DNA from: a virus | DNA length: 28,548 nucleotides | Virus record (IMG/VR): IMGVR_UViG_3300020160_002184 | Location: 1 to 28,548 of that record | Strand: one strand, 5' to 3' | Shown here: piece by piece, positions 1 through 27,248 of the stretch | Numbering within the stretch: position 1 is the first letter of the stretch | Layout: each line of letters opens with the position of its first letter | Notes under the pieces: generated by a model | Told to the model about the DNA's origin: nothing | What the model saw: the letters and a program-made list of their open reading frames with translations, nothing else | The model's database searches: none | Position numbers and translations under genes: made by a program

Positions 1-3000
1 ATTGAGCTAGAATCACCAAAATCGTCAATGCTGATACTTGGCGCATAGAACACTGTGGTAGTACCGTCGCCTGTGGTGGTGTCACTGATTACATAATCTT
101 GCATGGATTCTGGGCCAATGTTACCACGGCCTATGTCATACACATATGATCCTGCATTGTGGCTAGCAATGCCAGTTCCAGCTGTACCACGCAGTAGCCC
201 CCTTAAGGAGTTGTCGGCTAAGTTGCGAGTGCGATAGGTAATTCTCTCACCGTTAATAGTTATTACACCAAGATTGCCTGCCGCAGGGTCTGGGTTGTCT
301 AGTGCCGCAGCATTGGTCACGTAGATAGTATCTGCGGCAGCACTGAGAGCTTGAGCTAATTGAGTTGTAGTCTGTTTAGTAATTCTATAGGTAGCCTGTA
401 CTCCGCGCATGTCTTGGAAAATGCGGAATCCAATAGCTTCAGGTACTACAGAATTAGTGCACTCAGTTGCAACTACAATATCACTGGCTTCAATGGCGCC
501 AGATGCCAAGATCAAATACTGACCGTCAACAGTGTAATCTTGTCCTTCAAACAGTCGGAAGCCGTTGAGTGTAACCCACAATCTACCAGCGTTGATTCCT
601 GTTCGCAGTAAATCAAATTCATTGGTAGGAATAGCAGTACACACAGTGTAGTCATAAGTGCCAGGTGCACCGCTTAAAGTACCAGTGTCATAGTCTGTGC
701 TGTCGTAGGGCTCGTTAATGGTGACGCCTGTGGTTACAGGGCCAACCCAAGTCAAGGTCAATAGTTTTTGTTGTGCAGTGTCGTTCCAGCTGGTCACTGT
801 AAATCTGTCACCAAGATTTACTGGTGCGATGAGTTCTACAGAACTACCAACAACATTATAATCAACCACAGTGGTAATTGCAATTAAAATTTCTAAGCCC
901 GAAGCTGGCGGTGAGTTGAACACCACTTGACGGCCTGGAACTTCGCTACCGTCCCAGTTTGTAACGCTGTAATCACCAGCAACTGCACCAAAACTTTGTA
1001 CTTGTAAAACATTATCAACCCAGACATTTACATCTGTTTGTGCATCAATAATTTGTTGGCTGTATCCACTTCTTTGTGGCAAACCAAAACTCATTGAACT
1101 ATCATCGCCAATCCACTCTATAGAAGCAGCTGGTCGTAAACGTACTCCGTTCTTGGTCACAACAAGATTGGGTGCATTGGTGCCGGTCAGTGTAGCTGAT
1201 AAGTTTAAAGTTTGGGTTGAAACTAGATTAGCATCAGCTACAAAGTTTTGTACAACTGGCGTACTCCAAGAATATTGGGACGGTGTTGTAAAGCCTAATA
1301 CAACCAATGCAACATTGTCTGTGGTGTTGATTGTAGTATTCCAGGTGACTTTGCTCTCCAATGTAGGCACAAAAGCAAACCAATATTCTACATTGGTTAT
1401 TTCAATACCCACAGGCACATTTTGCAAGGCCCTGTAATAGGTACTGCTGTTTTTAACAATGTCAAGTTTTACATATGAATTGTTAATAACCCATGGTACA
1501 CTGTCAATATAAGGTGCCCATGTTACCCCAGTCAAAGATTCACTATTAACAAAAGTAACTGCATTCCAAATTTCAGCACTATTCACCGGCACAATAACTG
1601 AAGATCCAGCTTCAGTACCAGTGTAGTTTGCTCTAAACAACTGGCTGCCGCCGCCAACTTCGTACACACTGATGTTTATGATATCACCAGAGGATGCATT
1701 AGTTATAACTTCAATAGTTTGATCATTCCAGTTGACATAATAGTCAAGCTCTTGAGTCAGATCAATCCCAGATGTTACATTGCTCACTATGATTTGCACT
1801 GGATGATCTACCACGCCTTCCCAGCTTAGTATGGAAGTAATTGCTGGATTGTAGGTATATCGAACTGTGGCAATTTGGAAACCATGTCCATCACTTTGCC
1901 AGTCAGATCCAGGGCGAGTAAACACTCGCATGTCTAGTGTGTCATATTCGCTGCCGTTGACCAGTTCTTCAGGTGCGTGTCCTTCGTAAGGACCAATGAA
2001 TTCACCACCGTTGACATTGATACTGGTAAAAGTTTCTCCCAGTGTTAGATCCGTAAATTCGCTTTGATATTGCGCATCCAGTGGTACGGTTCCCAAGAAA
2101 TAGTCGCCCCAAACTTGCACGCCTGGATAGTCAACGCCATCAATTAACAGTGGCAATTCAAGGCCAGGTAAATTTACTCCAGCAACATAGAATCCCATGG
2201 TACGATCTACACCTGACAACTCACTGGCAGGAACTTGGTCCCAATCTTCTAGGTTGAATGATGGTCCTACGTTGGCCGAGCTTCCATCTGAATTGTCAGC
2301 CCGCCACACACGGTCATCGTAACGTACCAAGGTACCATTTTCGTAAGTACCTGTGGGAGACCAAGTCAACACTTGTGTTTGGTACTGGAATCTATCATAC
2401 TTGATAACTGTACGGAAGTCTCTTACTAGATCATTGGTTAAGCGCACATAGGCTCTTGCACCTGTGCCGTTACCACCTTCAAACAACACTGTGGGAGTTG
2501 AACGATATCCTGAACCATAGTCAGTGATGTTTACTGCCACAACCTGACCAACACTGTTGATAACTGCTACACCAACTGCTGGCGTGACAGCATCACCCAC
2601 AATGGTAACTTGCGGTGCTGCTTGATATCCAGTGCCTTGGTTAACCATGACAATTTCACTCAAACTCAACAAGTAGTTGCTGTACCATTGCGAGTATGGC
2701 CACTCTTGCCAAACTGTGCTGCTGACCGGCAAATCACTCTTGTCATTGCTGATCTCTGCTGTGCCATGATCATAAGGTAACAATATTGGGCTGGTAAACT
2801 GTGGAATCTCTAGACTGGTATTGTAGTAGGCTGGCACATCAAAGTCAGACATGTCTCCAAAGAAAGTGTTCAGGCCATTATATTTGAGGTTGAACTCACG
2901 AACTTGCACGTGATAAGGTTTGACTTCTTGAATATAGTCAGAAACAAATTCTTGGTTGTCTCGCACATAGTTCTGGAATGGCAACAACTCACGGATTCTG

Positions 3001-6000
3001 TGGTCAACGTCAATGAGAGATGTTTTAATCAACCACTCTGGGGCGGAGAATTCACTCAGCACAAAATTAAACATCAGCACCAAAGCTCGGTTGCGTTCTA
3101 TTGCAAGATCATCTATGAACAATTCTTCGTTGATGGCCTGAATTATTTTGCGAGTTTCAATTACAGGTTCTTGATCAAAATACTGTGCATCAAACACTTC
3201 TAGGTCAAAACCAAATCGTCCCAGTGCATAGTTCCACAGTTCTTCAGAAAACTCTATAGTACCGTCTTGCAAGACCACACGACTCCAACCAGTGTCTTCA
3301 AGCAGGTAAATTTCAAACTTGTTTTGAGCATTGGCAGTGACCCGCACACTGCTGCCTACTGGTAAACTCAGTGTACTCAAGGCGCTGTATGTGGACACTT
3401 CAGCCACAGGCTTGATGCTGTTGTTATACCCTGGACGATACCAGTTAATATAACTCCAATAGTCTGGTGTGTTGTAATTTTGCACACGAGTTAGAATCAA
3501 CTGTCGGCCTCCCAACAATATTGGATCAGCTTCAACTGTGTAGATTGACCACAAGCCTCGATTGTTTGAGTCAGTAACAACCAAATAACGATAACCCAAG
3601 GGCACAGTATAGATATTTTGGAAACTTAAAATTTCCAAGTTGGCCACACGCAGGTCCCACAGTCCGCTATTGGCGCTGGGTTCAGGCTCAGCACTGTTTA
3701 ACAACACAAAACTGCGGCTTTCGCTGATGGGGTACTGTGCTAATACAAAATTGGCTCTTGTGAAATAATTACGCAGGGCTTCAAAACGATCCACAAACAT
3801 ACTTTGTCGTGGTCTGAACTGTATGCCATATCTTTCTGCCACATTCAAATTAGGGTCAGGAACTTTGTTACCAAACGTATCAATTCCACAGAAACTATCT
3901 TGCAATTTACGATACAAGTTTGCGCTCAAGAATCCATCAGCTCTGTCTTGAGCAATGAGTTCGTATTCTACGTGAACATTGTCGTTTGTGAATTCGCGAT
4001 CAAATTCAATGTTCAAGATAGTGTCTTCAGCTTCAATCAAAGTTTCGCAATTATACAACGCAATAGTGCTGGCATTGATTGGTGCAATATATGCAATACC
4101 ACTTGATCTTGGATTGCTGATATATTGCGATACAACGCTGATGGCTAGAGTTTTTCCTTTTTGTGTAGCAACGTCTGTTAGACCGCGGACCCAGAAGAAG
4201 TATTGGGTACTAAATGTGCCATCAGTGCTGAGTACTGAATTAATGCTATAACTCACTGTGTCATGCAGAATACCTGGACCAGTGTAATTGGCCGGTGGTA
4301 CTGGACTCACAATCCACTGATACACATCAACGCTGGATCCAGGAAAAATTTGTCCCCAACGACGGCTAGCGTACACAATGTCATCTTGGCTGGGATCAAT
4401 AAATCTCACTGTGCTAATATCCCACCATACTTCACCTACATGTTCTGCGCCCCAGGTTGTGCCACGAATGTTAACAGGACCTGCATTGTAGCTAGCAGGA
4501 TCTACAGCACCAATGTAATCAATATTTTGCTGTGCGGCACCTAGTATTTTGCCCTGCAACGGATTGAAAAAATCTAAAAATTCAGTCTTGGCCGATGTCA
4601 CGCGGTCATACAAGAACACCCCGTTGAGCAATCTAACATCCACTGTGGGCTGTTCGCTGTTTATTGGTACCCAGCTAGGAGTACGTGTTTGATTTTCAAA
4701 CACAAACACACTGCCAAAGTTAGCAGATGATGAGTCTTCAAAGTCATTTCCGGGCGCACCAATCATTAGATTACCAGAAGTGTAATTTACTGCTACGCCA
4801 AACTGATCATAGCTGTCAATGCTAACATTTGAAATTTGATCACCAAATACAAACTTACCTGGGTTGCTCACACTCATGCTTGAGCTAGGCAAGTAATTAA
4901 ACGTATAGGCTGCGCCGCTTTGTGCAATCACAGAGAAGAAGATAGTGGCGCCAGCGTCAAAGTCAGTAATGCCATCATCAAATATTGTTTCTAAATACAA
5001 GGTACCTTGCGGAGCACCCACTACCAAATTTGTAGCAGTAGTATCAATGCTCAGGCTTGATCCAAATGCTGCGTAGTCAACAGGATACGGACTTTCAATA
5101 GTTTGTGTATACGCAAAGGTGTTAAATCCTAAATTATAGAAAGTAGATCCTACACTACCAGGGGCCACTTGTAGTTTATCGCCCACTGGCGCTGCACCGC
5201 TGTTTTTTACGCTGAGAGTCAGATACCCATCAGTTGACACTGTGGCAGTAACGTTGGGAACTTCGGCATTAATGGCTGCTGCCAACCCTGCAACATTTTG
5301 ATTGGGCGCATTAGGCACTGCAACATCAATGTTGTTGACGCGAATAGTTTCGCCAGAAATCAGAGTAGGGTTGGGTGTGATTGCTGTGATAACCCCGTAA
5401 GTACGTGATTGGTTAACTTGACGTTCAACTACACCACCTTTGAAAATTTGCACACTGCTTTGTGGCGCACCTGCATACAAACTACAATTGTAGTTACACA
5501 ATGCTACGGCAGATCCATAATTGCTAAATTCGGCCACTGTGTTCTGTGATAAAGTTTGTACCAGTTTAAATTGATTGGTTTCAATCTGCACCTCGTCGCC
5601 CACAGCCAAATCAGCATTGAGAGTTACTGTATTGCCACTAACAGTGAATGTGTTGGGAAACGATGAAGTAGCAGCAGCCTCATTGATCAGGAATACATTA
5701 TTGACCAATACACTAACTGGAGCGGTCACTGTACCAAGCACAGTGAAACTAATTGAACTGGGATCAGTCCCGTAGATAAATCTTTGTACATCACGATCGT
5801 AAACATACACTGCACCAGCCTCGCTCTGGCTATTCACTGTGGCGTCAGGTGCTCCTACAATGAGAGTGCGGCCGTCTGTGCTGCAACTAATGGTTTCACC
5901 AAAGCGAACATTGGTGCCGCCTAGAGTAATAGTATCTACATAGGTAAAATACGACTGTGCTCTAGCTGCAATAATAGTGCCTTGGGCAGGACTGTTTAAG

Positions 6001-9000
6001 AAAGTGATATCTTTAGTTGAACTGTTGAAAGTGTAATCAATGTTGGGTCGTTGTAGCACTTCGTCAACTAGTATGGTAAAACTATAAATGTTGCTGACTG
6101 TAAACAAATATTCGTTTAGTGAGAACGTTGTGGCCAGTGCAGGTGGTGTATATGCAATGGTAAATCCAGTGATGCCACCTGTGCCATCAACACTAGTAAT
6201 AGTCAAAGTGATAGGGTTTGTGCCGCCAAAGCTGGCGCCGGCAATGGTTATTGTGTTGGTTACTACATAACCAGATCCTACCGCAAATATGCTAACGCTA
6301 CCAGCATCGCTACCAGGTTGGCCTACTTCTCCGCGTGTGCGAACAATGGTAAAGGCAGCATTGATTCCTGATCCACTGGTTGAAGTTTGTGGAACATTAT
6401 AATAAGTTTGTCCGTCAAGTTGTTTACGGCCCAATCTGCGAATTGTAACTACACTGTCAGCTGGTGGCACAGTAATAAAATTCACAGCAGTGTAAGATGC
6501 ATTTACAGTGTAATTTGTGCCAAGCAGATACAATGTATCATCCACAGTAACACTGATTTGAGTATCAGCATTGATTTGAATTGTGTTAGAAATTTCATAC
6601 GTAGTTGAATCACCGTCAGACAACGAACGTATAAATTGATCTTGCCAATCAACTTTACCATAGGCATGTACTCGATTATTGCCCGGCTCACCTATGTACA
6701 TCCAGCGTTCGTCTTGACTCATGACCACACTGTAACCAAACTCACCTTGATCAACTGATACAGATCCTGGAGTGGTCAGTAGTTGCCACAAGAAGTAAGG
6801 GTTAGCGCCAGGTTGAGCTGATCCTGGATCTTTGTAAATCACAGCCACATAGCCATTATTGGCCTGGCTTGCTGATCCCAAACTAGCACTGGCGCCTGCC
6901 ACTGCCCAGTCACGTTCACCAAAGTCTACTGCATTACCAAATCCTCTGGTACCGGCTACGCCCAGGGTAAGAATTGCATCACCATCAAGCAACGGGCTGA
7001 TTGGAATGTACTGATCCGCAGTGCTTTTAACATATACATAGACTGCACCTGTTGCAGTGCCACTGCCAAATCCATAATATGGGCTGCCAACCAAAGCAGC
7101 AAAACGATTTAATGCCTGGGCCACACTGTAACCATAGCGTTCGTTGGCATCAAGATTTTCTGGGGCCAGCGTGATTACATCGCTAAACACTTTCTGTTTT
7201 TCTAGCACTTGCCATTTGCCTGTGCCATCGTCGTCTACCCAAACTCTAGCTCCGGGCAAGATGTCATTGGCATACGGTAGTGTGCCCACGTCAGATGCTT
7301 GCGATACTCGCATGGTTTGCAGTGTAAATGCTAGGCCTGTGCCATTGATTACTGTGCGATTTCCAAGTGGTACAAACGCAATGGTTATCTTGGTCAAGGA
7401 TGGTACTGTCAGTACTTGATATACTCCATCAACTTCAGTATCAAAATACTTGATAATAATAGTATTGCCAACACTCAGTCCATGCTGTTCAGTGAAAATA
7501 GCAATGCTGGTACCATCAAGGTTGTCACAGATATGACTGATAACCCCAGGTACATGATTTGTTCGATAAATGTTCCAGTCATAGTCATTTACTTTGGCCA
7601 CCCAAATACTGGTGCCATTGTAAATGTTATTGATTTCAGCTTCAAGGCTAGCAGGATTTGTTAAATCAAAAACTGTGACGTCAACGTCATTAAGATTTAC
7701 ATATCCAGCAGATGGTAATGCTGTGTCTGTGGGGACATCATATGTTTCGGGCAATATGTTTGTGCTGGTAAGTTTATAACTTTGTCGCCAAATATCACTT
7801 AGTAAAATAGCTTGATCAGCCTGGCTTGTTTGTTGTGGGAAGACCACTTGTACCAAGCTAGGGCTGGCGCTGAGTAATGCACGGTTTAATCGCAGTTCAA
7901 AGAAACTGCGGTTAGCATTGGCGCCGTACACTGCACGTTGTACTGCCCAGTTTTCATAGATGTCATAATTTCCAGCTTCTTTGCCAAGGTTGGTATTAGA
8001 GAACAGCTCTGCTGCAAGAATAGTACCTTTGCTACCTAGGAATTGTCGATAAACATTGACCTGACTAACATCGTCAAGATTCAATGCAGCCATGTATTGG
8101 CGTGGGCGGAATCCGATCAACCCATAGCTCAAAAGATCATTGTCACCTTCAAGATTAGCATTGTTAAGATTGTAGCTGTTGGCCAGCTGGTTGGCTTTAT
8201 TGGCCAAGTTTGGCAATAGTCCTAGCTCAATCTGTGTATAATCGCTTTGTACCCAATCGTTGTAATTGAACAGCGCACTAGGTTGCACAATGGTCAACGC
8301 TGACCAATAGGTATTTTTGTACTTGACAATTTCGCCTTTGCTATAAGTGCGCAGGCCAGTCCATTCTTCAACATTATTTTGGTTGAGTATGAAACCTTGT
8401 GCGTCTACACTGCCATTCCACTCAGTGGTTGTGGCGGCCACAATATTCAAACGACTCTGGCGTGCACCAGTGACTGGCTCATAAATTAAATCGCCGAACA
8501 CTGACACATTGTCCAACACAATCATGTGTTCATAAGCGGTGTATTTAATATCAATAAAACTCAGAGTTTGGTCATTCAATGGTTGCACAGTGAATGTGTT
8601 ATCAAAACGCACAATGTTAAGATTGCGTGTAGATAATTCTCTACGATTTTGATCTAGTAATAAATCTTCGCTGGTCTGAGCACGAATGCTGTCTACTACA
8701 CCATCAGCTTTGGTAACTGATAAACTAAACGCCAAGGGGTTTAGATTAATTAGTGCATCTTCTGACCAGCCCTGTTGGCTCCAGTATAGAAATTCTGTTA
8801 CCATCTGTTGCCAGGTCAGTACATAACCATTGGCTTGATTTGTAAATGTTAGTCCTTGTGTTTCTAAGAATCTACCATAACTTAACAAAAAGTCAGCGAC
8901 ACTAGACAAACTACTAAAAATAAACCCATATGGTACTTGTACCACAGTTTTGGTATAAACAGTGGGTACTTGAACTGAAACACCGGCTGCTGTAATAGTT

Positions 9001-12000
9001 TGTAGTTTGCCTGCTGGTACACTTTGCAAAACATTAAAGTATGGTTGAGTGGTGCTGTAGCCACCTACTGAATATCCGCCTGCTACTCGTTGAACCAATA
9101 CAGAACTATAACTGGTTCTATCAAACGGTTGATTCTTATACAACAACAAATTATAACTTTCGTCAGGAATCAAGAAAGTAGTATTTGTTGAACTAGGGCT
9201 GGTCTTTTCTGTGTAAATTTTAATGTACTGTTTGTCTGAAAAGCTTGCCATTCGATAACATAAACGTACATCAAGATTGGCCAAATCAGCAGTGAGGTCT
9301 TGTGTAGAATCTAGTCCAGTTTGACGATTGTAGTCCACAATCCAGTCAATATAGCTGGCTTTGGATACACCATTGCCGTAAACTTCAATGCCGTTAGTAT
9401 CAAGACGATAACGGTTGTTGTAGAGATATTGATCAAATTCTGCGTTGTAACGATACAAATCTCTATCTGCAAACAGCGCAAAAAACTTGGCTGGTTTTGT
9501 CAATGCCAACAGTCTCATTACAGCAAAAGGATATGCACTTGAATTCCACCAAGAGGCTTCAACTGGTCCGCCATCACCAACACTCCAACTCTTGCGGAAC
9601 TGTTGTGGATCGTAAGTGCTGACCACACTTTGCAAAGGAGCCAGTAATTCGCCTTCGCTACCAGTTGGAATTACTTGTCCAAGTCCAGGTCTAGCAAATT
9701 CTGGTAAAATATAAGGTGCAATTGGGTCGCGCACCAAACCAGCTTCAAGGTCATCCCAAAGCACTAAGTTATCTGCGGTGTATGGGGCGGTGCCATAAGT
9801 TTCATCCCACCAGTCTGGTTTAATACTGAATCCCAGCATTTCCCAGGGCGTAAATTCAGGTTGCTGAGTATCATAAAAATATCGATAGATACCGCGCCAA
9901 GCGCCCAACAAGTTCTCACTATTAAGTCGATTCTGAGCTTCGCTATAGTTGTAGGTAAATTCGTTTGTGGCAGAATACTGTTGCTCTTTGTAGTCCAGTT
10001 TGTTCCATGCAACATAGCTTAAAAAGTCTTGTGCTAGAATATTATTAACGGCAGATGCAGAAAATCCAGTCTCACGGAACTGTCCAGGTATTACGTCATA
10101 CGCTGACAGCGGAACAGGGTTTCCATCTAATTTTAAGTTGTTGTAAATTCTAGTTTCAAACTCCAACAGCACATTATCTCTGATGTCACCAAAAGTTTTT
10201 GTTACTGACCCATCATGTCCTATGATAACTGTTTGATCACCTTTGGCAGTTTTTTGCACAACCACAGCAGGTTCCCAGGCTTGGTACAGTCCCAACTTGG
10301 TGGGTGTGTTGGGCACAAAATTGCCATATGTTTGCGCATATTCACGAATGGTAATTGCATCGCCCACGGCCAGTGTCACAAGAATAGTCACACGTGGTCC
10401 GTCTGTGGCCACAACGTATTCTAAGTCACGAGTGAGAATTTCATTATTGAGATACACGTTCATGCCAAGGTAGTTGGCAGATTCGTAGTTGTAAACTTGC
10501 AATGTATCAAACACATTAGAAGTAATAAAACTCACAGTGTAGTTGGTTTCGTTGTACACAGCGCCACTAGGCACCATGTCACTCCAATAAAACGGCTGTG
10601 TTTCTACTTTGCCTAGTGTGATGGTCTCCATGGCAGTGTCAAGGATATCAGCAGTGGTTCGGAAATTAATTTCTTGACTAAGCACTGCATCCAGCATCTG
10701 GTACTTGAATTTGATGTATTCCTGACTGTTGTAGTCTAGTGAATTAAAAATATTAAATTGGGTACTGCGTAAGAAATACCCAGCTACGGTCAGTGGCGCA
10801 GCCTGTTGCAAAATGGTTAAACCATAAGGACCAATATTGCCAAGGTCTCTGGTATTGTTGTCACCTGAGATTGCACCTGAAATACTTGGCAGATTCTCGC
10901 AAATACTTTGGTATTGCTGACGTATTGTGCCCAATGTAAATTGATTGCTATTGCCGTTGAGCGGATTGTTCTCAAGGTTAATTGGCACCTGGTAGAAAGC
11001 AACTTGACTGGTTTGGTCACTTAGCACCAAAACTTCAATTATGTCGCCAGGCACATAGATTTCTTTAAGAGTAATAAATGTACTATTGGTAGTTCTAGTG
11101 TAGGTATATTTGCTAGGTTCTTGAAAAGCTGATCCTACGTAAATTTTAATTACAGGCACTACATCTGTATCATTGACTCTGACGTCAAGATTTAGAGTAC
11201 TGGTGGAATATGTAAATTTAAATTGTTGGTATACTTTGGTAGTTGTTACTGCATTTTGCCAGCCAATCAATCGTTGATATGCTGTACGAGTTTCATACTC
11301 CCGAGCTGTTCCAGAACTGAGAGGCAGTGTAACTGACACGTTGTCAAGTGTGTAGATAAAAGAATCTTTGTACAAATTATTATCAAATACAATATCGCCA
11401 ACGTTTTGTAAATTAAGATACTGCAACGGAAATTTCAACACTACGTCAAGGATACCACTGTCGCCCACAGCATAGCTAAACAACTTACTGCCTAAAAAGT
11501 CTGAGCTGGGGTATGTGGCTCTATCACCAAAACTAATACCATTGGCATCATATACATTGAATAATGGCGCTTGTTGTACACCAGTTTTTTGTTGTGCTTC
11601 AAACCAAACTGTACCATCGTACCAAAAAGTTTTGCCCTTGCGGTCAGTTCCATCTAAACACACCGTACACTGGTCAGCTAGAATCAAAGCGTCTGACGCA
11701 GGTACTAAGTGTATAACAGGTTGTCCAGTATAAGGTGATGGTATAGGTGGGGTTGAATCCGGTGATACAAATTGCACTACCCAAATTTTATTTCTTACGT
11801 TGACATCTTCGTCAGCAGCAAAAGTTACTCTTGATCCATCTACTAGAGTATAGCCATCTACTGTGTAACCAGTACTGCCTTCTACATTGCTGAAAGCATC
11901 AGTTTCTTCAAAGTCAATGATGTCAATTGCGACTTTACCGTCGGTTCCCATGTTGAACAAACGGATTCCTGGTCGGAACTGAACAACTGGACGCTTGGCT

Positions 12001-14258
12001 CGATATGCATTGTCAAGAACCGCCACAGTATTGTTATAGTCTGCTGTAGAGTTAATGACATCAATGTGGAACCAACGATTGCTACGTGACCATGCATTTA
12101 GATCTTTGCTGGCTCGGTCAATAGTTAGATAATCTAGTTCGTCAGGCTCAGTTGCAATGGTACTGTCGTTTGCATCAACAACATAGCTTTCTGGGGTTAC
12201 AAAATTTGAAACTGGTAGTAGCTCAATACTAGATCCTACACCAGCCACATAGTATTCACGATTGGTAATGGTCACACCATTCATGGTACCACTGCCAGTC
12301 AATAAGTTAACTGGCAATCCGCCTAGAGTGGCGCTGATGCTGAATTGATATGCACTGGCTATGGTACTGACATAGTATGTATAGCCTGCTGACAAGCCGC
12401 CCAATGTAGTGCCAGTAAACACAATCTGCTGACCTTCGTACAGGCCAGCAGTGCTGATGGTTGTGATATAGTTGGTGGCGCTGTTGGTGTTTGAACACAC
12501 AATAGATCCTGTGCCAGACCCATAGCTGGCAGGATATATATCGCCTGTGAATCTAACTTTTAAGCCATTGGTAAACTGCACGCCATTGGCTGAGGTGTAT
12601 TGTTGTTGATCCAGAATGTCACTAATGTATAGTGTGCTACTGTCAGTTTGATCCAATAGTTTGATTGTACCAAAAATTTCTGGATCAGTACCATCTTGAT
12701 AGTACAATGTGTCCATGGTAGCAGTTAGCAATGGAATTTGTGAAAATTCGCCAGCAGCAGTTTTGTACCAGTTGGTACTGCTGTATTGTGCACCATAACG
12801 AATAGTAAATTTTTCCAAATTAGCAACTGTTGCAGTTTTTGCCAATTGCATGTAAGTGTATCCGTTAGCAGTTACATAGTTAATGGTGTAAATTTGATAG
12901 CGATCTTCAGGCAATATTTCAGTGACTTGATCAAACGTTGTGGTATCATAAGTTCCAGGTAGAGCCTCATTGGATACCCCGGGTGCTACAGGATCAAACA
13001 ATGTAGTACGTAACCAGCCGCCGCCTTCAGCATCTTCAATGGGATTGGTAAACACCAAGGTACGACCGTTGAGATAGGTAATACCATCAATACCGTTATA
13101 GGTATTGATAAACTGATCCACAGGTTGATTGTTGATCTGATCAAATTTCATTGAGGTCAACAAGTCAATGGTGCCAATGTCTGCTAGATTATAATAAAAA
13201 TCTTGTGCAGTTTTGTATGGTACATCAAATATGATAGTGCCAAGGTCTTCACCGTTGTTTGAAACCCCTAATACATCTCTGCTGGAAATGTTGGGTGTAG
13301 CAGGAATTTGACCAGAAATACCCGGGTTGGTCTGAACCCAAAAGCCTGGACCTGTACCAGGTGTGCCATCTACAATCTGCAACATTCCATTCATGTTGGG
13401 CTGATTTTGTGAAGAATAGTACAGTGTGTCCGGCGCATCCTGCGGGACAACAAATGTCACTAGACCTAATATAGCTCCATTGCGACTTACTCCGGAGTCA
13501 TAGCTTTCGCCTACGCCAGTTGTGGGTGCTGTTTTAATCCAGAATGGATATGCCCCAGTCAATGCCAAATTAAACACGTAGGTGTTGCCACGAGCCAGTG
13601 TCAGTGTAGGGTTGTTTTGGAAATCAATATTGTATGCTGTGGTTCCAGTGTTTTTTACACGATAGTTCACAGTTTCTTTGGCATTCTGTGCTACTTGGAA
13701 AGTGTAACTGCCGCCGCGCACCAATTCAATTTGTGGATTTTCGCCAGGCACACCCGAGAAGGTGTAAACACCGTTTTCTCTAGTCACAACAAAATTGTCG
13801 CTGAACGGCACGCCGGTTGCAGCCACATCTACAGTGTCAGGTCCATTAGGCAACCAGTAATACTGTGCAAAGTTTACAAAAGCATCATAGTCTATAAATG
13901 GGTCCCAAGTATAGTAGTCACTTTCGTACAACAAGTCTGGTCTGCCGCCGTTGCCACCTTGGAAAGAAATAGCATCAGCCATGCCTGGATAGGTAATGGC
14001 ATTTTTAATATTGTTAGTGTCAGGCTCAAGGCTGATTACACCAGGTTCCAATTGATAATTGGCTCTGGTGGCACTGGGCTCAACCACATACTTGTCGTTG
14101 GGGTTGACGCCTGGGCCTACACTGCGACCAATGTAGCCCTGTGTTTTCTTAAACTTAGGTTCCTGAATCAGTTGATCAAGTGTGGCAGCCAAAAATTGTT
14201 TGTTGGCATCAGTTTGAAAAATTTGTGGAAGGAAGTCAACGCTTCTTATTTTGGCCAT
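1..14258 (-). CDS. Giant virion structural protein at the gp7 position (3' end outside window)
   Basis: A single open frame starts at the ATG at 14256-14258 and reaches the left edge without a stop, giving at least 4752 residues. GGAG lies 7 bases before the ATG, and the ATG overlaps the gp6 stop as TAATG, so the two genes are probably translationally coupled. The N terminus (MAKIRSVDFLPQIFQTD, then FLAATLDQLIQEPKFKKTQG) and internal blocks such as PWEMLGFSIKPDWW (near 9830) resemble large structural proteins of marine T4-like phages; this is from memory, not a search. Visible domains are a cupredoxin-like domain (residues ~213-295), seven FG-GAP-like repeats (~2375-3190), GxGY beta repeats (~3870-3940), and an ERITYR...RGTAGTG module near the window edge (about 180-280). 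In T4 this position holds wedge initiator gp7 (about 1030 residues). Whether this protein contains a gp7 homologue is inference. It could instead be a baseplate-peripheral or host-contact protein. Confidence 0.8.
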   Translation of the reverse strand, partial: MAKIRSVDFLPQIFQTDANKQFLAATLDQLIQEPKFKKTQGYIGRSVGPGVNPNDKYVVEPSATRANYQLEPGVISLEPDTNNIKNAITYPGMADAISFQGGNGGRPDLLYESDYYTWDPFIDYDAFVNFAQYYWLPNGPDTVDVAATGVPFSDNFVVTRENGVYTFSGVPGENPQIELVRGGSYTFQVAQNAKETVNYRVKNTGTTAYNIDFQNNPTLTLARGNTYVFNLALTGAYPFWIKTAPTTGVGESYDSGVSRNGAILGLVTFVVPQDAPDTLYYSSQNQPNMNGMLQIVDGTPGTGPGFWVQTNPGISGQIPATPNISSRDVLGVSNNGEDLGTIIFDVPYKTAQDFYYNLADIGTIDLLTSMKFDQINNQPVDQFINTYNGIDGITYLNGRTLVFTNPIEDAEGGGWLRTTLFDPVAPGVSNEALPGTYDTTTFDQVTEILPEDRYQIYTINYVTANGYTYMQLAKTATVANLEKFTIRYGAQYSSTNWYKTAAGEFSQIPLLTATMDTLYYQDGTDPEIFGTIKLLDQTDSSTLYISDILDQQQYTSANGVQFTNGLKVRFTGDIYPASYGSGTGSIVCSNTNSATNYITTISTAGLYEGQQIVFTGTTLGGLSAGYTYYVSTIASAYQFSISATLGGLPVNLLTGSGTMNGVTITNREYYVAGVGSSIELLPVSNFVTPESYVVDANDSTIATEPDELDYLTIDRASKDLNAWSRSNRWFHIDVINSTADYNNTVAVLDNAYRAKRPVVQFRPGIRLFNMGTDGKVAIDIIDFEETDAFSNVEGSTGYTVDGYTLVDGSRVTFAADEDVNVRNKIWVVQFVSPDSTPPIPSPYTGQPVIHLVPASDALILADQCTVCLDGTDRKGKTFWYDGTVWFEAQQKTGVQQAPLFNVYDANGISFGDRATYPSSDFLGSKLFSYAVGDSGILDVVLKFPLQYLNLQNVGDIVFDNNLYKDSFIYTLDNVSVTLPLSSGTAREYETRTAYQRLIGWQNAVTTTKVYQQFKFTYSTSTLNLDVRVNDTDVVPVIKIYVGSAFQEPSKYTYTRTTNSTFITLKEIYVPGDIIEVLVLSDQTSQVAFYQVPINLENNPLNGNSNQFTLGTIRQQYQSICENLPSISGAISGDNNTRDLGNIGPYGLTILQQAAPLTVAGYFLRSTQFNIFNSLDYNSQEYIKFKYQMLDAVLSQEINFRTTADILDTAMETITLGKVETQPFYWSDMVPSGAVYNETNYTVSFITSNVFDTLQVYNYESANYLGMNVYLNNEILTRDLEYVVATDGPRVTILVTLAVGDAITIREYAQTYGNFVPNTPTKLGLYQAWEPAVVVQKTAKGDQTVIIGHDGSVTKTFGDIRDNVLLEFETRIYNNLKLDGNPVPLSAYDVIPGQFRETGFSASAVNNILAQDFLSYVAWNKLDYKEQQYSATNEFTYNYSEAQNRLNSENLLGAWRGIYRYFYDTQQPEFTPWEMLGFSIKPDWWDETYGTAPYTADNLVLWDDLEAGLVRDPIAPYILPEFARPGLGQVIPTGSEGELLAPLQSVVSTYDPQQFRKSWSVGDGGPVEASWWNSSAYPFAVMRLLALTKPAKFFALFADRDLYRYNAEFDQYLYNNRYRLDTNGIEVYGNGVSKASYIDWIVDYNRQTGLDSTQDLTADLANLDVRLCYRMASFSDKQYIKIYTEKTSPSSTNTTFLIPDESYNLLLYKNQPFDRTSYSSVLVQRVAGGYSVGGYSTTQPYFNVLQSVPAGKLQTITAAGVSVQVPTVYTKTVVQVPYGFIFSSLSSVADFLLSYGRFLETQGLTFTNQANGYVLTWQQMVTEFLYWSQQGWSEDALINLNPLAFSLSVTKADGVVDSIRAQTSEDLLLDQNRRELSTRNLNIVRFDNTFTVQPLNDQTLSFIDIKYTAYEHMIVLDNVSVFGDLIYEPVTGARQSRLNIVAATTTEWNGSVDAQGFILNQNNVEEWTGLRTYSKGEIVKYKNTYWSALTIVQPSALFNYNDWVQSDYTQIELGLLPNLANKANQLANSYNLNNANLEGDNDLLSYGLIGFRPRQYMAALNLDDVSQVNVYRQFLGSKGTILAAELFSNTNLGKEAGNYDIYENWAVQRAVYGANANRSFFELRLNRALLSASPSLVQVVFPQQTSQADQAILLSDIWRQSYKLTSTNILPETYDVPTDTALPSAGYVNLNDVDVTVFDLTNPASLEAEINNIYNGTSIWVAKVNDYDWNIYRTNHVPGVISHICDNLDGTSIAIFTEQHGLSVGNTIIIKYFDTEVDGVYQVLTVPSLTKITIAFVPLGNRTVINGTGLAFTLQTMRVSQASDVGTLPYANDILPGARVWVDDDGTGKWQVLEKQKVFSDVITLAPENLDANERYGYSVAQALNRFAALVGSPYYGFGSGTATGAVYVYVKSTADQYIPISPLLDGDAILTLGVAGTRGFGNAVDFGERDWAVAGASASLGSASQANNGYVAVIYKDPGSAQPGANPYFLWQLLTTPGSVSVDQGEFGYSVVMSQDERWMYIGEPGNNRVHAYGKVDWQDQFIRSLSDGDSTTYEISNTIQINADTQISVTVDDTLYLLGTNYTVNASYTAVNFITVPPADSVVTIRRLGRKQLDGQTYYNVPQTSTSGSGINAAFTIVRTRGEVGQPGSDAGSVSIFAVGSGYVVTNTITIAGASFGGTNPITLTITSVDGTGGITGFTIAYTPPALATTFSLNEYLFTVSNIYSFTILVDEVLQRPNIDYTFNSSTKDITFLNSPAQGTIIAARAQSYFTYVDTITLGGTNVRFGETISCSTDGRTLIVGAPDATVNSQSEAGAVYVYDRDVQRFIYGTDPSSISFTVLGTVTAPVSVLVNNVFLINEAAATSSFPNTFTVSGNTVTLNADLAVGDEVQIETNQFKLVQTLSQNTVAEFSNYGSAVALCNYNCSLYAGAPQSSVQIFKGGVVERQVNQSRTYGVITAITPNPTLISGETIRVNNIDVAVPNAPNQNVAGLAAAINAEVPNVTATVSTDGYLTLSVKNSGAAPVGDKLQVAPGSVGSTFYNLGFNTFAYTQTIESPYPVDYAAFGSSLSIDTTATNLVVGAPQGTLYLETIFDDGITDFDAGATIFFSVIAQSGAAYTFNYLPSSSMSVSNPGKFVFGDQISNVSIDSYDQFGVAVNYTSGNLMIGAPGNDFEDSSSANFGSVFVFENQTRTPSWVPINSEQPTVDVRLLNGVFLYDRVTSAKTEFLDFFNPLQGKILGAAQQNIDYIGAVDPASYNAGPVNIRGTTWGAEHVGEVWWDISTVRFIDPSQDDIVYASRRWGQIFPGSSVDVYQWIVSPVPPANYTGPGILHDTVSYSINSVLSTDGTFSTQYFFWVRGLTDVATQKGKTLAISVVSQYISNPRSSGIAYIAPINASTIALYNCETLIEAEDTILNIEFDREFTNDNVHVEYELIAQDRADGFLSANLYRKLQDSFCGIDTFGNKVPDPNLNVAERYGIQFRPRQSMFVDRFEALRNYFTRANFVLAQYPISESRSFVLLNSAEPEPSANSGLWDLRVANLEILSFQNIYTVPLGYRYLVVTDSNNRGLWSIYTVEADPILLGGRQLILTRVQNYNTPDYWSYINWYRPGYNNSIKPVAEVSTYSALSTLSLPVGSSVRVTANAQNKFEIYLLEDTGWSRVVLQDGTIEFSEELWNYALGRFGFDLEVFDAQYFDQEPVIETRKIIQAINEELFIDDLAIERNRALVLMFNFVLSEFSAPEWLIKTSLIDVDHRIRELLPFQNYVRDNQEFVSDYIQEVKPYHVQVREFNLKYNGLNTFFGDMSDFDVPAYYNTSLEIPQFTSPILLPYDHGTAEISNDKSDLPVSSTVWQEWPYSQWYSNYLLSLSEIVMVNQGTGYQAAPQVTIVGDAVTPAVGVAVINSVGQVVAVNITDYGSGYRSTPTVLFEGGNGTGARAYVRLTNDLVRDFRTVIKYDRFQYQTQVLTWSPTGTYENGTLVRYDDRVWRADNSDGSSANVGPSFNLEDWDQVPASELSGVDRTMGFYVAGVNLPGLELPLLIDGVDYPGVQVWGDYFLGTVPLDAQYQSEFTDLTLGETFTSINVNGGEFIGPYEGHAPEELVNGSEYDTLDMRVFTRPGSDWQSDGHGFQIATVRYTYNPAITSILSWEGVVDHPVQIIVSNVTSGIDLTQELDYYVNWNDQTIEVITNASSGDIINISVYEVGGGSQLFRANYTGTEAGSSVIVPVNSAEIWNAVTFVNSESLTGVTWAPYIDSVPWVINNSYVKLDIVKNSSTYYRALQNVPVGIEITNVEYWFAFVPTLESKVTWNTTINTTDNVALVVLGFTTPSQYSWSTPVVQNFVADANLVSTQTLNLSATLTGTNAPNLVVTKNGVRLRPAASIEWIGDDSSMSFGLPQRSGYSQQIIDAQTDVNVWVDNVLQVQSFGAVAGDYSVTNWDGSEVPGRQVVFNSPPASGLEILIAITTVVDYNVVGSSVELIAPVNLGDRFTVTSWNDTAQQKLLTLTWVGPVTTGVTINEPYDSTDYDTGTLSGAPGTYDYTVCTAIPTNEFDLLRTGINAGRLWVTLNGFRLFEGQDYTVDGQYLILASGAIEASDIVVATECTNSVVPEAIGFRIFQDMRGVQATYRITKQTTTQLAQALSAAADTIYVTNAAALDNPDPAAGNLGVITINGERITYRTRNLADNSLRGLLRGTAGTGIASHNAGSYVYDIGRGNIGPESMQDYVISDTTTGDGTTTVFYAPSISIDDFGDSSS
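2440..2645 (-). other. GxGY-type beta repeat segment inside the giant protein
   Basis: Reading the giant frame, this stretch encodes two successive units: NQGTGYQAAPQVTIVGD, then DYGSGYRSTPTVLFEGG, followed by NGTGARAYVRL. The spacing between GxGY motifs is about 30 residues. Units of the form GxGY..xPxVxI recur in phage tail and adhesin proteins and usually build beta-strand-rich stacks. A single related unit (VGSGYVVTNTITIAG) is encoded near 6240-6290. The structural reading is inference from the repeat pattern. Confidence 0.6.
4690..7136 (-). other. Seven FG-GAP-like repeats (predicted beta-propeller) in the giant protein
   Basis: Seven units with the FG-GAP pattern (FG.SV... then L.vGAP... 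then G.vyvy) can be read in frame. Unit 1, 7136-7023: YGYSVAQ...ALVGSP...GAVYVYV. Unit 2, 6941-6826: FGNAVDF...WAVAGAS...NGYVAVI. Unit 3, 6740-6655: FGYSVVM...MYIGEPGNN. Unit 4, 5903-5793: FGETIS...LIVGAPDA...GAVYVYD. Unit 5, 5519-5436: YGSAVAL...LYAGAP...VQIFKG. Unit 6, 5066-4985: FGSSLSI...LVVGAPQG. Unit 7, 4802-4690: FGVAVNY...LMIGAPGND...GSVFVFE. Long inserts lie between units 3 and 4, 4 and 5, and 5 and 6. Seven units is the blade number of integrin-alpha propellers. I see no canonical DxDxDG calcium loop in the units. The motif is direct observation; the fold is inference from the FG-GAP family. Confidence 0.7.
13377..13620 (-). other. Cupredoxin-like domain near the N terminus of the giant protein, copper ligands apparently lost
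   Basis: Residues ~213-295 of the giant frame read NNPTLTLARGNTYVFNL, then GAYPFWIKT, TGVGESYDSGVSRNG, VTFVVPQDAPDTLYYSS, and PNMNGMLQIVD. This order of blocks matches a cupredoxin-like sandwich often found in marine phage structural proteins. There the usual blocks are G-H-PFWI and YY-C-x-x-H-x-x-M, carrying His, Cys, His and Met ligands. Here the first His is Tyr, the Cys is Ser, and the second His is absent; only the Met region remains. The domain is probably purely structural. The family assignment is from memory. Confidence 0.55.
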
Positions 14259-17200
14259 TAAATTACTCCACTGCCTGGCGCAGTACGCAAGTTGGTACTG
14301 GTAAGGGCTTCAATCACATCAATGTTGTCAATGGTTGCACCGTTTGCAAATATTTCATTGGGTTGACTGCGAATTTCGTACAAGTCACCAAAACTCTTTT
14401 GTGGGTCCAAAGGTACTAATACTACAGAACTAACAATGGTACCTAACTGTCTGTGAAGGTATGCTCCCAGTTCTGAAAAATAGAATGTGTCACCAAAGTT
14501 CCACTTGTCAATACTAAAGTAGTTGTTCATTTCGGCCAACACTGCGCTTTTGATTTCGCTGGTACTGGCTGTGCTATTCTGTGCACGAATCACTTTGATT
14601 GTGGCACGTAACGTAGAGGCTGCCTTGGCGCCAAACAACGGTTTGAAAACAACTGAGTTTAACACAATGTTGTCAGAAATCATTTTGTAATCTTGCAACT
14701 TTTGGTATTCAGTATTGAGATCGTCAATTGATGGTGGGCTGGGCTCGGTCACAGTGCCTGTAGTATCTTGCAACCAATTTTGATATGTTGTGTAGTAACT
14801 TTGTGTAACCACGTACAAATCAATAATGTTAGTGGTGCCTGGATCAATTCTTGAAGTCAATGGTGCATTATGACGGTATTGGAAGTAGAGGCTTTGGCGG
14901 CCACTTCTAGCAATCCAGCCAGTTACTTCATCAAGAACCAATACTCCAGTCACAGTTTGACTAAGTTCATAAAACTTTTCATCAGTGTAGGCATAAAACA
15001 CCTGTCCAGGACTCCACTCTGACTTGACTAATTCAATGTCATCTAATGTAGCATAGTCACTGTTAACTACGCCTGGCTCTACTAGCAAGTAACGTTGTAA
15101 GTTGTCAAAGTCCACAGTTTGCTGTAAGAACACCCAAGGTGAGCTGGTACTAGCCACTGTTGGTACTGTACCTACAATTTCTTGGAAGAAATCTGGATTG
15201 TCAGGCACACCGTCGTTGTCACTGTCACGATAACTGACCAAGACTTGGAAATCGTCAACGTATCCGTCACTCTCAACTGGCTGACCAACAATGGTCATAA
15301 TGATATCGCCTTCAAGAGGTTCAGTTGAGTCGGGCTGTGTGTTAACTGCCAGCACATTGATAAAATCTTTGATTACTGTGCCTGTGCGGCTGTCGTAAAT
15401 TTGCCCGCCTTCATAGTAGAAAAATCTAGTTTGAAGCACACTGCCAAAATTATACTGCAACCCACGGAAAGTAATTGTGTAGTTTTGATTCTGTACAGTA
15501 AATTGTATTAACCATGAAGCATCAAGGTTAGCACCAGAAGTGTTGCCTGCATAGGTCTGACTCCAAGGAGCATTGTCGTCAAGATTGGTGGATGTGATAA
15601 GGTACCAAGAGTACGCACTACCAGTAATGCTGCCGTCACTGTCATAGCCAAGACCAAAATTGCGGAACAACACAATCTGTTCACTCATGGCAGTTTCAAT
15701 GCTGAGCGGTAAGTCAGTAATAAACAGCGGTATCACAGTGCTAATAATTGCACCTGTGGGCACAAAGTTATTGAGTGTGATTGGACCAGCGCCATTGGTC
15801 AAGTTGCCTAGCCCAGCATTCATGCCATCACCAATAATTTGTAAAGGACTAGCCCAAATTTCCAAACGCTCGTCGGCCTTGGTAGGAGTACCCAACTGTA
15901 GTTTGTTGTTGCGATCAAAATAGTATCCAGTAGGCGGCACAAATTTAATCAGACTACCAACCAAGGCAAATCTAAACTGTGAGGTTGAATCTTCGCCAAC
16001 TGGTATAGGATTGCCTGTACTGTTTTTAAAGTAACCTGTAGTTTCGTTGGCCAAGGTGGTGCTTTGACTCCAGGTAGCATTGGCAGCCCAGACTATGCCT
16101 GGTGGCAGTGTGCTTGTGGCAGTTTCGCGTGGAAAGTTGGCATAGTAGAACTGCCGCATAGAATACTCAGTCAGTTGTGGTTGCACCTGATTGGTAATTA
16201 CGTCAGCAATTTCATTGCGATTAGTCCAACTAAACAATATAGTTGGCAGTATGTTTTGTTCCCACAACCCGCCATCACTTGAAAAAGTGTTAGTTGATGA
16301 GTACTTGCCAGTGTTGTCCACAAGGTCAAGATAGCGACTAGTACCAATACTAGCACGATTCAATGCCTTGCTCTTGATGATTGAGTTGTAGGCAGTGTAC
16401 GGGAAAAGATTATAGTCTTCACCGTTGACCATGCGATTCTGTGTGTAGTAACGTGCAGGAGCACGTTGCTTGATTGCGTCAATGTTTTCACGACTTTGAC
16501 TGTTGCTTACAGGATTGGTTATTCCGCAAGTAAATGTAATGGTTTGCAAGTTGCCTTTGCGGTCAATGTAGCTGATCGGCAACAGTACACTTTGCATTTC
16601 TTCAGGATTAATAATGTATTGCAAGCCGTTTGACGCACGAACATAAGCTCTAAACTGCCCTACTGGGATTTCAGAGAACACACCATCACCAAACACCATG
16701 GTAATTTGATCGTTTGTTCTTGAAGTTATAGAATATATTGGGCGCAGGCCAGTGAGTTGCTCTGTGACAGCAGCATAGATGTTATCAGTATAGGTCCACT
16801 CACGAGTAATGTTGCCTACATTATCCAATTGAAACAGCCAACGATCTTCGTTGTTGACACCTTCAACATTGATGTTCACAGTGCGATTACTAATACGTTC
16901 TGCCAAGTTGAAGTCTTGATTTTGTAGTGATCCCTGCTTGAAATAGAAAAAATATCCAGTATTAGCTGAGTTGAATCCCAATTGGTCGTTGCGGTACAGC
17001 ACATTAAACGTTGCGTTTGGTACAGGACTTGGCTCATAGACATAGTCACGCCCCACGCTGGTTGATGTGACTGCTTCAAACGGCATTGAAATACCGTCTA
17101 CTGTGGCATTGTAAGGTATTACTGGCAAAAATCCTTGTACCAAATTAACAGCATACTCATCGGTACGCACACCCAATATGGTTTGACGATTGCCGGGTCG

Positions 17201-17713
17201 ACCAATTTTTTGACTGTCAACCAAGGCAGCATTGATAATAGTAGTAAACTGTTCTTGCCAGTCTGGGTTAGTGGGGTCAGCCCAGTTGATTGTAACGTTG
17301 CTGAGATTAACACCATTGTAGTCATAGACATTTTCAGTGGTTGTGACATTAAAAACTTTGAGATAGCCTTGGGCAGCAGTGTTGCGTTTGGCAGTGTAGC
17401 TGACAAGATTGGCCAAGCGCACAACTGAATCTCTGCGTTCTGCTGTGTCTAAATAGTTTTCTCGTGTGTTTAGGTCTGTGCGGAAAGCCAGTGCCTGGCC
17501 CATAAACGCAATAACGTCTAATAGCGCAATGAATTCGCTTGATTCAATGTAGTCATTGAATGTTTCAGGATAGTACAAACGTAGGTAATCAATAAAACTC
17601 TTACGTAGGGTTTCAAAATCGTAACTTTGAAAGTCAGCTTCGCGATAGGTTTGATAGATCTGTTTCCAGTCCTCTACCCCGAATATTGCTGTTTGTCTTG
17701 TGGTTTTTGCCAT
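14258..17713 (-). CDS. gp6: Baseplate wedge protein gp6, long form with a central insertion
   Basis: gp6 forms the inner ring of the T4 baseplate and joins wedges into the six-fold disc. The N terminus (DFETLRKSFIDYLRLYYPE, then SSEFIALLDVIAFMGQALAF) is the recognisable gp6 helical region. The mid part (FGDGVFSEIPVGQFRAYVRA, then QRAPARYYTQNRMVNGEDYN, residues ~340-450) is the conserved J-like core. The C-terminal part (~1005-1151; NSVVFKPLFGAKAASTLRAT, FGDTFYFSELGAYLHRQLGT) is also gp6-like. At 1151 residues it is much longer than T4 gp6 (660); residues ~490-1005 are extra beta-rich sequence with an acidic DxDxDG-type loop at ~830-841. It follows gp25 after a 52-base gap holding a late-promoter-like AATAAATA. 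Its stop overlaps the giant gene's ATG. AGG about 9 bases upstream is a weak ribosome site. Confidence 0.9.
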   Translation of the reverse strand: MAKTTRQTAIFGVEDWKQIYQTYREADFQSYDFETLRKSFIDYLRLYYPETFNDYIESSEFIALLDVIAFMGQALAFRTDLNTRENYLDTAERRDSVVRLANLVSYTAKRNTAAQGYLKVFNVTTTENVYDYNGVNLSNVTINWADPTNPDWQEQFTTIINAALVDSQKIGRPGNRQTILGVRTDEYAVNLVQGFLPVIPYNATVDGISMPFEAVTSTSVGRDYVYEPSPVPNATFNVLYRNDQLGFNSANTGYFFYFKQGSLQNQDFNLAERISNRTVNINVEGVNNEDRWLFQLDNVGNITREWTYTDNIYAAVTEQLTGLRPIYSITSRTNDQITMVFGDGVFSEIPVGQFRAYVRASNGLQYIINPEEMQSVLLPISYIDRKGNLQTITFTCGITNPVSNSQSRENIDAIKQRAPARYYTQNRMVNGEDYNLFPYTAYNSIIKSKALNRASIGTSRYLDLVDNTGKYSSTNTFSSDGGLWEQNILPTILFSWTNRNEIADVITNQVQPQLTEYSMRQFYYANFPRETATSTLPPGIVWAANATWSQSTTLANETTGYFKNSTGNPIPVGEDSTSQFRFALVGSLIKFVPPTGYYFDRNNKLQLGTPTKADERLEIWASPLQIIGDGMNAGLGNLTNGAGPITLNNFVPTGAIISTVIPLFITDLPLSIETAMSEQIVLFRNFGLGYDSDGSITGSAYSWYLITSTNLDDNAPWSQTYAGNTSGANLDASWLIQFTVQNQNYTITFRGLQYNFGSVLQTRFFYYEGGQIYDSRTGTVIKDFINVLAVNTQPDSTEPLEGDIIMTIVGQPVESDGYVDDFQVLVSYRDSDNDGVPDNPDFFQEIVGTVPTVASTSSPWVFLQQTVDFDNLQRYLLVEPGVVNSDYATLDDIELVKSEWSPGQVFYAYTDEKFYELSQTVTGVLVLDEVTGWIARSGRQSLYFQYRHNAPLTSRIDPGTTNIIDLYVVTQSYYTTYQNWLQDTTGTVTEPSPPSIDDLNTEYQKLQDYKMISDNIVLNSVVFKPLFGAKAASTLRATIKVIRAQNSTASTSEIKSAVLAEMNNYFSIDKWNFGDTFYFSELGAYLHRQLGTIVSSVVLVPLDPQKSFGDLYEIRSQPNEIFANGATIDNIDVIEALTSTNLRTAPGSGVI
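15191..15226 (-). other. DxDxDGxxDxxD calcium-loop-like motif inside gp6
   Basis: In the gp6 frame this encodes DSDNDGVPDNPD (residues ~830-841), within the extra central region. The acidic spacing matches the calcium-binding loops of thrombospondin type 3 repeats and dockerin or EF-hand-like loops. Only one copy is visible, so it is a candidate metal site rather than a repeat domain. Metal binding is inference. Confidence 0.5.
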
Positions 17714-17765: not shown

Positions 17766-18140
17766 TTATACTATGGATGCTTGGCGCTGTTGTAAGTCAA
17801 AGAAAACACTGAGAATGTCAGCATTAGACCCAGCCACAGTGGCTATTTCTAACTGTAAAAGAAATCCGTTCTCTTGCGGAAAGCATTGAACATTGCTCAC
17901 AGTGATTCTTGGATCTTGCGCAACTACTCTACTGACTTCGGCTTCAATGTTACGTTGTAGTTCTTCAATTTGATTTTCAAACAAGAAATCCCACAGCACT
18001 GTACCGTACTGTGGTCGGCCTGGCAGTTCGCCTTGTCTGATATTAAACGCATTCAACAAGTCTCGCTTGATTAACTCATAGTTGACCAAGGTAAACTTTT
18101 TGTATTGATTTATAGTATTGAACCCAACAAATGTAGTCAT
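17766..18140 (-). CDS. gp25: Baseplate wedge protein gp25
   Basis: gp25 is a small wedge subunit at the sheath-baseplate interface, where it helps start sheath assembly. It belongs to the gp25/GpW-like family shared with type VI secretion TssE. At 124 residues it is close to T4 gp25 (132). The recognisable parts are LIKRDLLNAFNIRQGELPGR, QYGTVLWDFLFENQ, and IEAEVSRVVAQDPRI, the gp25 order of R.G.RP..P.fG..l.d.lFe followed by the RI segment. It lies directly before gp6, an arrangement common in T4-like and related phages. The only sensible start is the ATG at 18138-18140; no strong ribosome site precedes it, and a late-promoter-like element is only 4 bases upstream. It may depend on coupling to the upstream gene, whose stop is 10 bases away. 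Confidence 0.88.
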   Translation of the reverse strand: MTTFVGFNTINQYKKFTLVNYELIKRDLLNAFNIRQGELPGRPQYGTVLWDFLFENQIEELQRNIEAEVSRVVAQDPRITVSNVQCFPQENGFLLQLEIATVAGSNADILSVFFDLQQRQASIV

Positions 18141-24529: not shown

Positions 24530-24829
24530 TTAATACCCCAAATTGCTTTTGAGTGTGTCAGATTTGGGCAAATATATTTCTGTCCCTGTGACAAAATCTA
24601 ACGGGGGTGCTGTTAGTGTGTTGGGATTGCGTTGATAGAATACCCACCACAAGCTGCCAGTGCCATACAAGTCATAGGCCAACAAGTCTGGTCTGTATTG
24701 ATAAGTGGTATTGATAGTGAATCTAATGTCGTCACTTTGTTTGGGTACAGGTCGGTTAACCATGACATCCAAGAAAAATTGAGTGTACGGTGTAAGAAAA
24801 TATGGACTTGTTGCATCGTACTGAGCCAT
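24530..24829 (-). CDS. gp53: Baseplate wedge protein gp53, short form
   Basis: gp53 clamps neighbouring wedges in the T4 baseplate and contains a LysM-like fold. This 99-residue protein has the characteristic pattern: SPYFLTPYTQFFLDVMVNRP (N-terminal), TTYQYRPDLLAYDLYGTGSL, WWVFYQRNPNTLTAPPLDF, and a C-terminal TGTEIYLPKSDTL. The RPDLLAYDLYG..LWWVF..RN block is the usual gp53/LysM-like core of phage baseplates. It is half the length of T4 gp53 (196), so only the core is present. Its ATG overlaps the upstream stop by one base (TAATG), and AGGA lies about 10 bases before the ATG, pointing to coupled translation within the baseplate operon. Confidence 0.85.
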   Translation of the reverse strand: MAQYDATSPYFLTPYTQFFLDVMVNRPVPKQSDDIRFTINTTYQYRPDLLAYDLYGTGSLWWVFYQRNPNTLTAPPLDFVTGTEIYLPKSDTLKSNLGY

Positions 24830-27192: not shown

Positions 27193-27199
27193 TTCTGTT

Positions 27200-27217: not shown

Positions 27218-27248
27218 GCTAATAAAAACGGCATAGTTTAACAAGAGG

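Follow-up and report, generated by a model that had tools for sequence, protein, structure and literature searches.

In the jumbo myophage phiKZ, the C-terminal domain of the baseplate protein gp131 (gp131C, PDB 4GBF) forms a seven-bladed propeller, for which receptor binding has been proposed (PMC4901313). The receptor-binding protein Gp45 of phage phi11, a separate trimeric protein, contains a five-bladed propeller whose best structural match is an enzyme propeller (PMC4901313). FG-GAP repeats have been described in large eukaryotic viruses (MntV1, medusavirus), with a proposed role in attachment; in 2024, the MntV1 authors were aware of one other virus with an FG-GAP protein (PMC11467894). 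Here, we analyzed IMGVR_UViG_3300020160_002184, a complete IMG/VR viral record of 28,548 nucleotides (28.5 kb) that is probably a genome fragment; "the window" refers to this whole stretch. It encodes a giant baseplate protein of at least 4752 residues, whose open reading frame continues past the window edge, and within this protein we identified a predicted seven-bladed FG-GAP propeller of the integrin alpha type.

Results

Seven FG-GAP units in a giant baseplate protein

The initial annotation, made from the DNA letters, had placed seven FG-GAP units at residues 2375-3190. All seven were recovered in order: residue 2375 begins at base 7136 and residue 3190 finishes at base 4689, with units starting at residues 2375, 2440, 2507, 2786, 2914, 3065 and 3153, as follows.

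7026..7136, minus strand: FG-GAP unit 1, residues 2375-2411
6831..6941, minus strand: FG-GAP unit 2 (the weakest), residues 2440-2476
6651..6740, minus strand: FG-GAP unit 3, residues 2507-2536
5793..5903, minus strand: FG-GAP unit 4, residues 2786-2822
5412..5519, minus strand: FG-GAP unit 5, residues 2914-2949
4890..5066, minus strand: FG-GAP unit 6, residues 3065-3123; its B-C loop has 32 residues
4695..4802, minus strand: FG-GAP unit 7, residues 3153-3188

The last five units carry GAP or a near variant, as had been noted, the triplets of units 1 to 7 reading GSP, GAS, GEP, GAP, GAP, GAP and GAP. In a 29-row alignment, the glycine of the FG motif was invariant (29/29 rows) in six units and present in 27/29 rows in unit 1. 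The Pfam family FG-GAP_2 (PF14312) matched the window at 36.8 bits, against a curated cut-off of 23 (E=4.4e-9), and matched 28 of the 29 aligned relatives at E<=0.01, with a best E value of 9.8e-25.

We also performed a leave-one-unit-out test, in which a profile built from the six other units, with the window sequence excluded, was scored on the window protein. Units 1 to 7 scored 4.6, -3.0, 12.4, 22.6, 13.8, 7.3 and 10.9 bits, respectively, and these profiles never exceeded -3.5 bits elsewhere in the 4752 residues. Unit 2 was thus poorly recognized in the window, yet it scored above 5 bits in 14 out of 29 relatives. With the family profile, the window gave seven domains of 29-50 bits; among 500 shuffled sequences, the top single domain reached 9.2 bits and none had more than one domain above 5 bits. 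Separately, the A-B region of blade 5 (5412-5519, minus strand) contains a cysteine pair, LCNYNC, that is at least 90% conserved in relatives and may form a disulfide or a metal site.

An integrin-type fold without calcium loops

We modeled residues 2340-3230 with AlphaFold2, using 29 sequences. The model (predicted local distance difference test [pLDDT], 85; predicted template modeling score [pTM], 0.85) consists almost entirely of strands; every unit coincides with strands A, B and C. The model defines the following domain.

4653..7184, minus strand: FG-GAP seven-bladed propeller domain with inserts, residues 2359-3202 (AlphaFold2 model; integrin alpha PDB matches)

In a Foldseek search of the PDB, integrin alpha headpieces ranked first (9dia_A, 4wk2_A, 4wk0_A, 9b9k_A and many others). 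The top matches included integrins alpha5, alphaV and alphaIIb, with a probability of 1.00 and E values down to 5e-10. The template modeling (TM) score normalized to the target was 0.50-0.60 for the shorter integrin headpiece chains (0.60 for 4wk2_A, at E=8e-10, and 0.59 for 9dia_A). Searching PDB chains with the propeller sequence returned no match. The model and these fold matches bear out the annotated integrin-type seven-bladed propeller, with blades coinciding with the listed units.

The DxDxDG calcium loop, already noted as missing, was found in none of the A-B loops. In the window and 82 dereplicated relatives (83 sequences), these loops span just 2-5 residues, which leaves no room for the calcium sites of integrins, and we conclude that the propeller lacks them. 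The flanking hairpin directly before blade 1 does contain a DDDGTG turn.

Inserts and variable loops

The three long inserts described between the later blades are real, and we located them in the C-D loops of blades 3, 4 and 5.

5961..6647, minus strand: insert 1, in the C-D loop of blade 3; it combines a module resembling the N-terminal part of T7 tail fibres (PF03906, E=2.8e-5, slightly under the cut-off) with a further module
5595..5774, minus strand: insert 2, C-D loop of blade 4
5121..5411, minus strand: insert 3, C-D loop of blade 5, with a Flagellin_IN-like motif (PF07196, E=2e-5, above the cut-off)

Stretches of giant structural proteins of cyanophages that lack FG-GAP units (P-SSM7 VrlC, S-SSM7 gp7, S-RIM14 and S-MS29) show 27-35% identity to the module of insert 1, which is a shuffled virion module. 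Weak cyanophage matches that we had considered as propellers turned out to be such insert-1 modules, without FG-GAP units.

In a propeller, the C-D loops lie on the same side as the A-B loops, opposite the D-A/B-C face, which is the ligand-binding face in integrins. Among these sequences, length differences of tens of residues occurred in B-C loops (blades 1, 2, 4 and 6) and D-A loops (blades 2-4), while the A-B loops stayed within 2-5 residues; the length-variable loops of the D-A/B-C face are thus mainly in blades 1-4. In two relatives (L045 and L047), the B-C loop of blade 4, which lies on the face corresponding to the ligand-binding one of integrins, holds a further large insert.

Clade-wide inheritance and one natural loss

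We scanned for relatives three times: a first scan gave 62 loci, a profile scan gave 481 related IMG/VR stretches, of which the best 80 were kept, and a scan with a core profile gave at least 597. The loci of the three scans overlap, so that locus counts contain duplicates. Exactly seven units above 3 bits were present in 178 of the 193 protein segments spanning the site (duplicates included). In a group of relatives (L221-L231), only 3-4 units were recognized; we dropped the idea that these have fewer blades when seven diverged units could be read by eye in L221. A FastTree phylogeny of the conserved core (90 dereplicated rows, the window among them, plus six cultured jumbo phages), in which long outgroup branches leave details uncertain, separated the uncultured set from the six cultured phages. 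The propeller is present throughout this deep clade of uncultured jumbo phages and was inherited clade-wide, a conclusion that these data strongly support.

One member of the clade, IMGVR_UViG_3300025458_000019 (L225), has an unbroken giant frame with only 106 amino acids at the site and zero units, whereas L211, which is its sister with a support of 99, carries the full set of seven. The L225 flanks, ...GARVWVNRNENNKHAVYQKYDVIG... and ...GAWAMLHEEQDTVDVTLINKALLFDK..., align with both propeller edges in the window. There is thus strong support for an in-frame, clean loss of the propeller in L225, and for at least one loss in the clade; loss is simpler than repeated gain because propeller-bearing lineages stand both beside and outside L225. 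The L225 model at the site comprises a strand, a disordered linker and a second strand, at modest confidence (pTM, 0.47). In two other loci (L024 and L025), the giant frame breaks close to the point where the propeller begins and is divided between two reading frames, which could be an assembly error or a genuine change of frame.

Pairwise distances in the blades correlated closely with those in the core (r=0.92). Relative to the core and flanks, divergence was about 1.3-fold in the blades and about 1.5-fold in the inserts. Since blade distances track the core, carrier and propeller were passed on together; the propeller is an accessory domain, but one that is not freely swapped. Such co-inheritance argues against a rapidly exchanged specificity module, and the loss in L225 together with the length-variable D-A/B-C loops fits an accessory contact domain.

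The homologous site in cultured jumbo phages

The cultured relatives are jumbo myophages (PA5oct, Atu_ph07, 121Q, GAP32, SCTP-2, Vibrio 2.275.O and others). All six that we examined encode a homologous giant protein of 3.3-4.4 thousand amino acids, and no FG-GAP units were found in these six giant proteins (PA5oct, 121Q, GAP32, Atu_ph07, SCTP-2 and Vibrio 2.275.O). Each cultured giant directly follows a gp6-like gene, except in SCTP-2 and Vibrio 2.275.O, where a different large gene takes the gp6 position. Conserved blocks flank the insertion site in PA5oct, 121Q, GAP32, Vibrio 2.275.O and SCTP-2, and the distance between these flanks is 39-346 amino acids in those five phages (Atu_ph07 gave no value), compared with 904 in the window. 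Other material occupies the site in SCTP-2 (L068:17788-19116) and Atu_ph07 (L067:16885-21477), and that in Atu_ph07 includes repeated modules of the G-G-x-G-Y type. We had considered the Salicola phage SCTP-2 insert to look LamG-like, but it had no Pfam match and we make no such claim. The propeller site is possibly an insertion hot spot of giant baseplate proteins.

No propeller was detected in 50,697 phage records by tblastn at E<=1e-5, and the propeller of a divergent relative (L064) found none in cultured phage records at E<=0.1. We found no propeller relatives in bacterial genomes in a search limited to two peptide patterns.

The carrier protein and its operon

The minus strand of the window carries a T4-like baseplate operon, and the plus strand carries a late sigma factor and an SbcD/gp47-like gene. 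This context upholds the reading of the carrier as a phage baseplate protein.

3..14258, minus strand: giant gp7-position baseplate structural protein (open reading frame; phrog_10938, virion structural protein, E=7e-291)
7434..11111, minus strand: conserved core of the giant protein, residues 1050-2275, common to the PA5oct, Atu_ph07, 121Q and GAP32 giants
8235..8372, minus strand: CBM5/12 (chitin-binding type)-like module within the core (PF02839 sub-threshold in the PA5oct homologue; the L225 model locally and weakly resembles chitin-binding domains in fold)
3459..4652, minus strand: conserved segment after the insertion site, residues 3203-3600
14258..17713, minus strand: gp6-like baseplate wedge protein (phrog_10646, E=5e-281)
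17766..18140, minus strand: gp25-like baseplate wedge protein (PF04965, E=6e-9)
19644..21146, minus strand: gp5-like spike with OB domain (PF04717, E=2e-7; phrog_13211, E=3e-40)
21149-24526, minus strand: structural protein in hub position
24530..24829, minus strand: gp53-like baseplate wedge protein (phrog_7145, E=3e-23; PF11246 sub-threshold)
24829-27234, minus strand: structural protein

The carrier adjoins the gp6-like gene directly downstream, the position of the T4 gp7 wedge family, and we therefore call it a gp7-position baseplate protein. Core identity was about 55-80% in most relatives and about 30-35% in L064. A module of the CBM5/12 type was also present in the propeller insert of one relative. 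The PA5oct homologue of the giant protein carries the annotation ESI-MS/MS (electrospray ionization tandem mass spectrometry), which we read as detection of the protein by mass spectrometry. Between the gp5-like spike and the gp25-like gene, an alanine-rich protein of 498 amino acids (18151-19647, minus strand) had no significant Pfam or PHROG match.

Discussion

We consider it reasonably likely that the window encodes an integrin alpha-type, calcium-free FG-GAP propeller, inserted in a giant gp7-position baseplate protein, that acts as an accessory recognition or docking platform. Computation demonstrates or strongly supports that there are seven units with this fold, where they are inserted, that the domain was inherited across the clade and that it was cleanly lost once; we infer a binding role, either for a virion partner or for the host surface, and give host contact and docking of a virion part about equal weight. 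The propeller would stand out from the wedge as this platform, with its D-A/B-C face contacting a conserved ligand and the beta-module inserts protruding from the opposite A-B/C-D face. The ligand may belong to the virion, for example as a fibre or a protein of the baseplate periphery, or it may be a polymer that is widespread on host surfaces. A more specific form, in which a clade-wide, integrin alpha-like, calcium-free recognition headpiece is built permanently into the wedge and uses its top face to bind a conserved ligand, either of the host surface or of the phage's own fibres, seems to us to have a chance just short of even.

Several results weigh against this interpretation. The carrier matched T4 gp7 with an hhalign probability of only 0.2%, the core profile likewise had no T4 gp7 match, and T4 gp7 was absent from the top 50 PDB matches of the L225 empty-site model (pLDDT, 69.6; pTM, 0.47), a model of modest confidence that had no significant PDB match. 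Normalized to the whole query, the TM score of the propeller was only 0.31, because nearly half of the query consists of inserts. Closure of the seven blades into a ring is suggested by the strand pattern and the fold match. Finally, co-inheritance could equally reflect a purely structural role.

By analogy with phi11 Gp45 and the role proposed for phiKZ gp131C, the propeller may be a host receptor- or glycan-binding domain used in adsorption, which we hold as a tentative possibility. Phage propellers with such a proposed role exist (PMC4901313), the loops vary on one face, CBM5/12-type modules are present both in the carrier and in one relative's insert, and the propeller evolves faster than the core and has been lost in L225. 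However, specificity domains are often swapped, whereas this one shows no exchange between lineages (r=0.92 with the core), and the usual tip proteins are not gp7-position proteins. We hold with similar reserve that the propeller could instead be an internal adaptor to which a further part of the virion docks, for instance a tail fibre or a peripheral wedge protein. Stable co-inheritance with the carrier favors docking, as does the T7 fibre N-terminal-like module in insert 1: the T7 member of that family attaches the fibre to the tail, and the FG-GAP propellers of integrins dock the beta subunit. The clean loss in L225 with the carrier frame kept counts against it, although the partner could have gone too. 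It is improbable that the propeller is passive bulk, adding to the size of the baseplate but binding no specific ligand, as part of general module accretion in these giant proteins; the protein does contain several shuffled beta modules, one of them common to cyanophage giants, and other lineages such as Atu_ph07 and SCTP-2 carry other material at the site, but all seven units are kept across a deep clade, beyond what drift would leave. Despite the weakness of unit 2 in the window, a chance signal or a different all-beta repeat is extremely improbable, being contradicted by the agreement of Pfam, the leave-one-out profiles, the relatives, AlphaFold2 and the PDB fold search.

If an accessory recognition or docking platform is the correct reading, phages would have an integrin-like adhesion solution, and a domain with a testable function would lie inside a protein that databases name merely "virion structural protein". 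The carrier group is widespread among uncultured jumbo phages (481 related IMG/VR stretches), and a defined insertion site with natural occupied and empty forms makes the role of the domain testable.

Comparison with known systems

We found no literature on FG-GAP together with phage baseplates or tail fibers, in a search whose coverage did not extend to most subscription papers or any bioRxiv preprints. A seven-bladed baseplate propeller in a jumbo phage has precedent; for one of the FG-GAP/integrin type, we found no earlier report. The integrin alpha headpiece is the closest counterpart, with seven FG-GAP units and the best PDB fold matches, but the window propeller has no calcium loops, shares about 9-10% identity with it and bears large C-D inserts in blades 3-5. 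The integrin context of thigh and calf domains and a beta subunit is also lacking, being replaced by a phage baseplate carrier with unrelated flanking domains. phiKZ gp131C is likewise a seven-bladed propeller at a jumbo-phage baseplate, but it belongs to another carrier and phage group and fell outside the top 50 fold matches. phi11 Gp45 shares the presence of a propeller in a host-recognition protein of the baseplate; it differs in having five blades, in being a separate trimer and in that its best structural match is not an integrin. The FG-GAP proteins of large eukaryotic viruses, unlike that of the window, are separate proteins and do not belong to a tail baseplate; viral models similar to the window propeller are present in BFVD. 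The giants of PA5oct, 121Q, GAP32, Atu_ph07, SCTP-2 and Vibrio 2.275.O provide the homologous carrier, yet have no FG-GAP units. Few phage baseplate propellers are on record, and that of the window would extend the list by one of the FG-GAP/integrin type.

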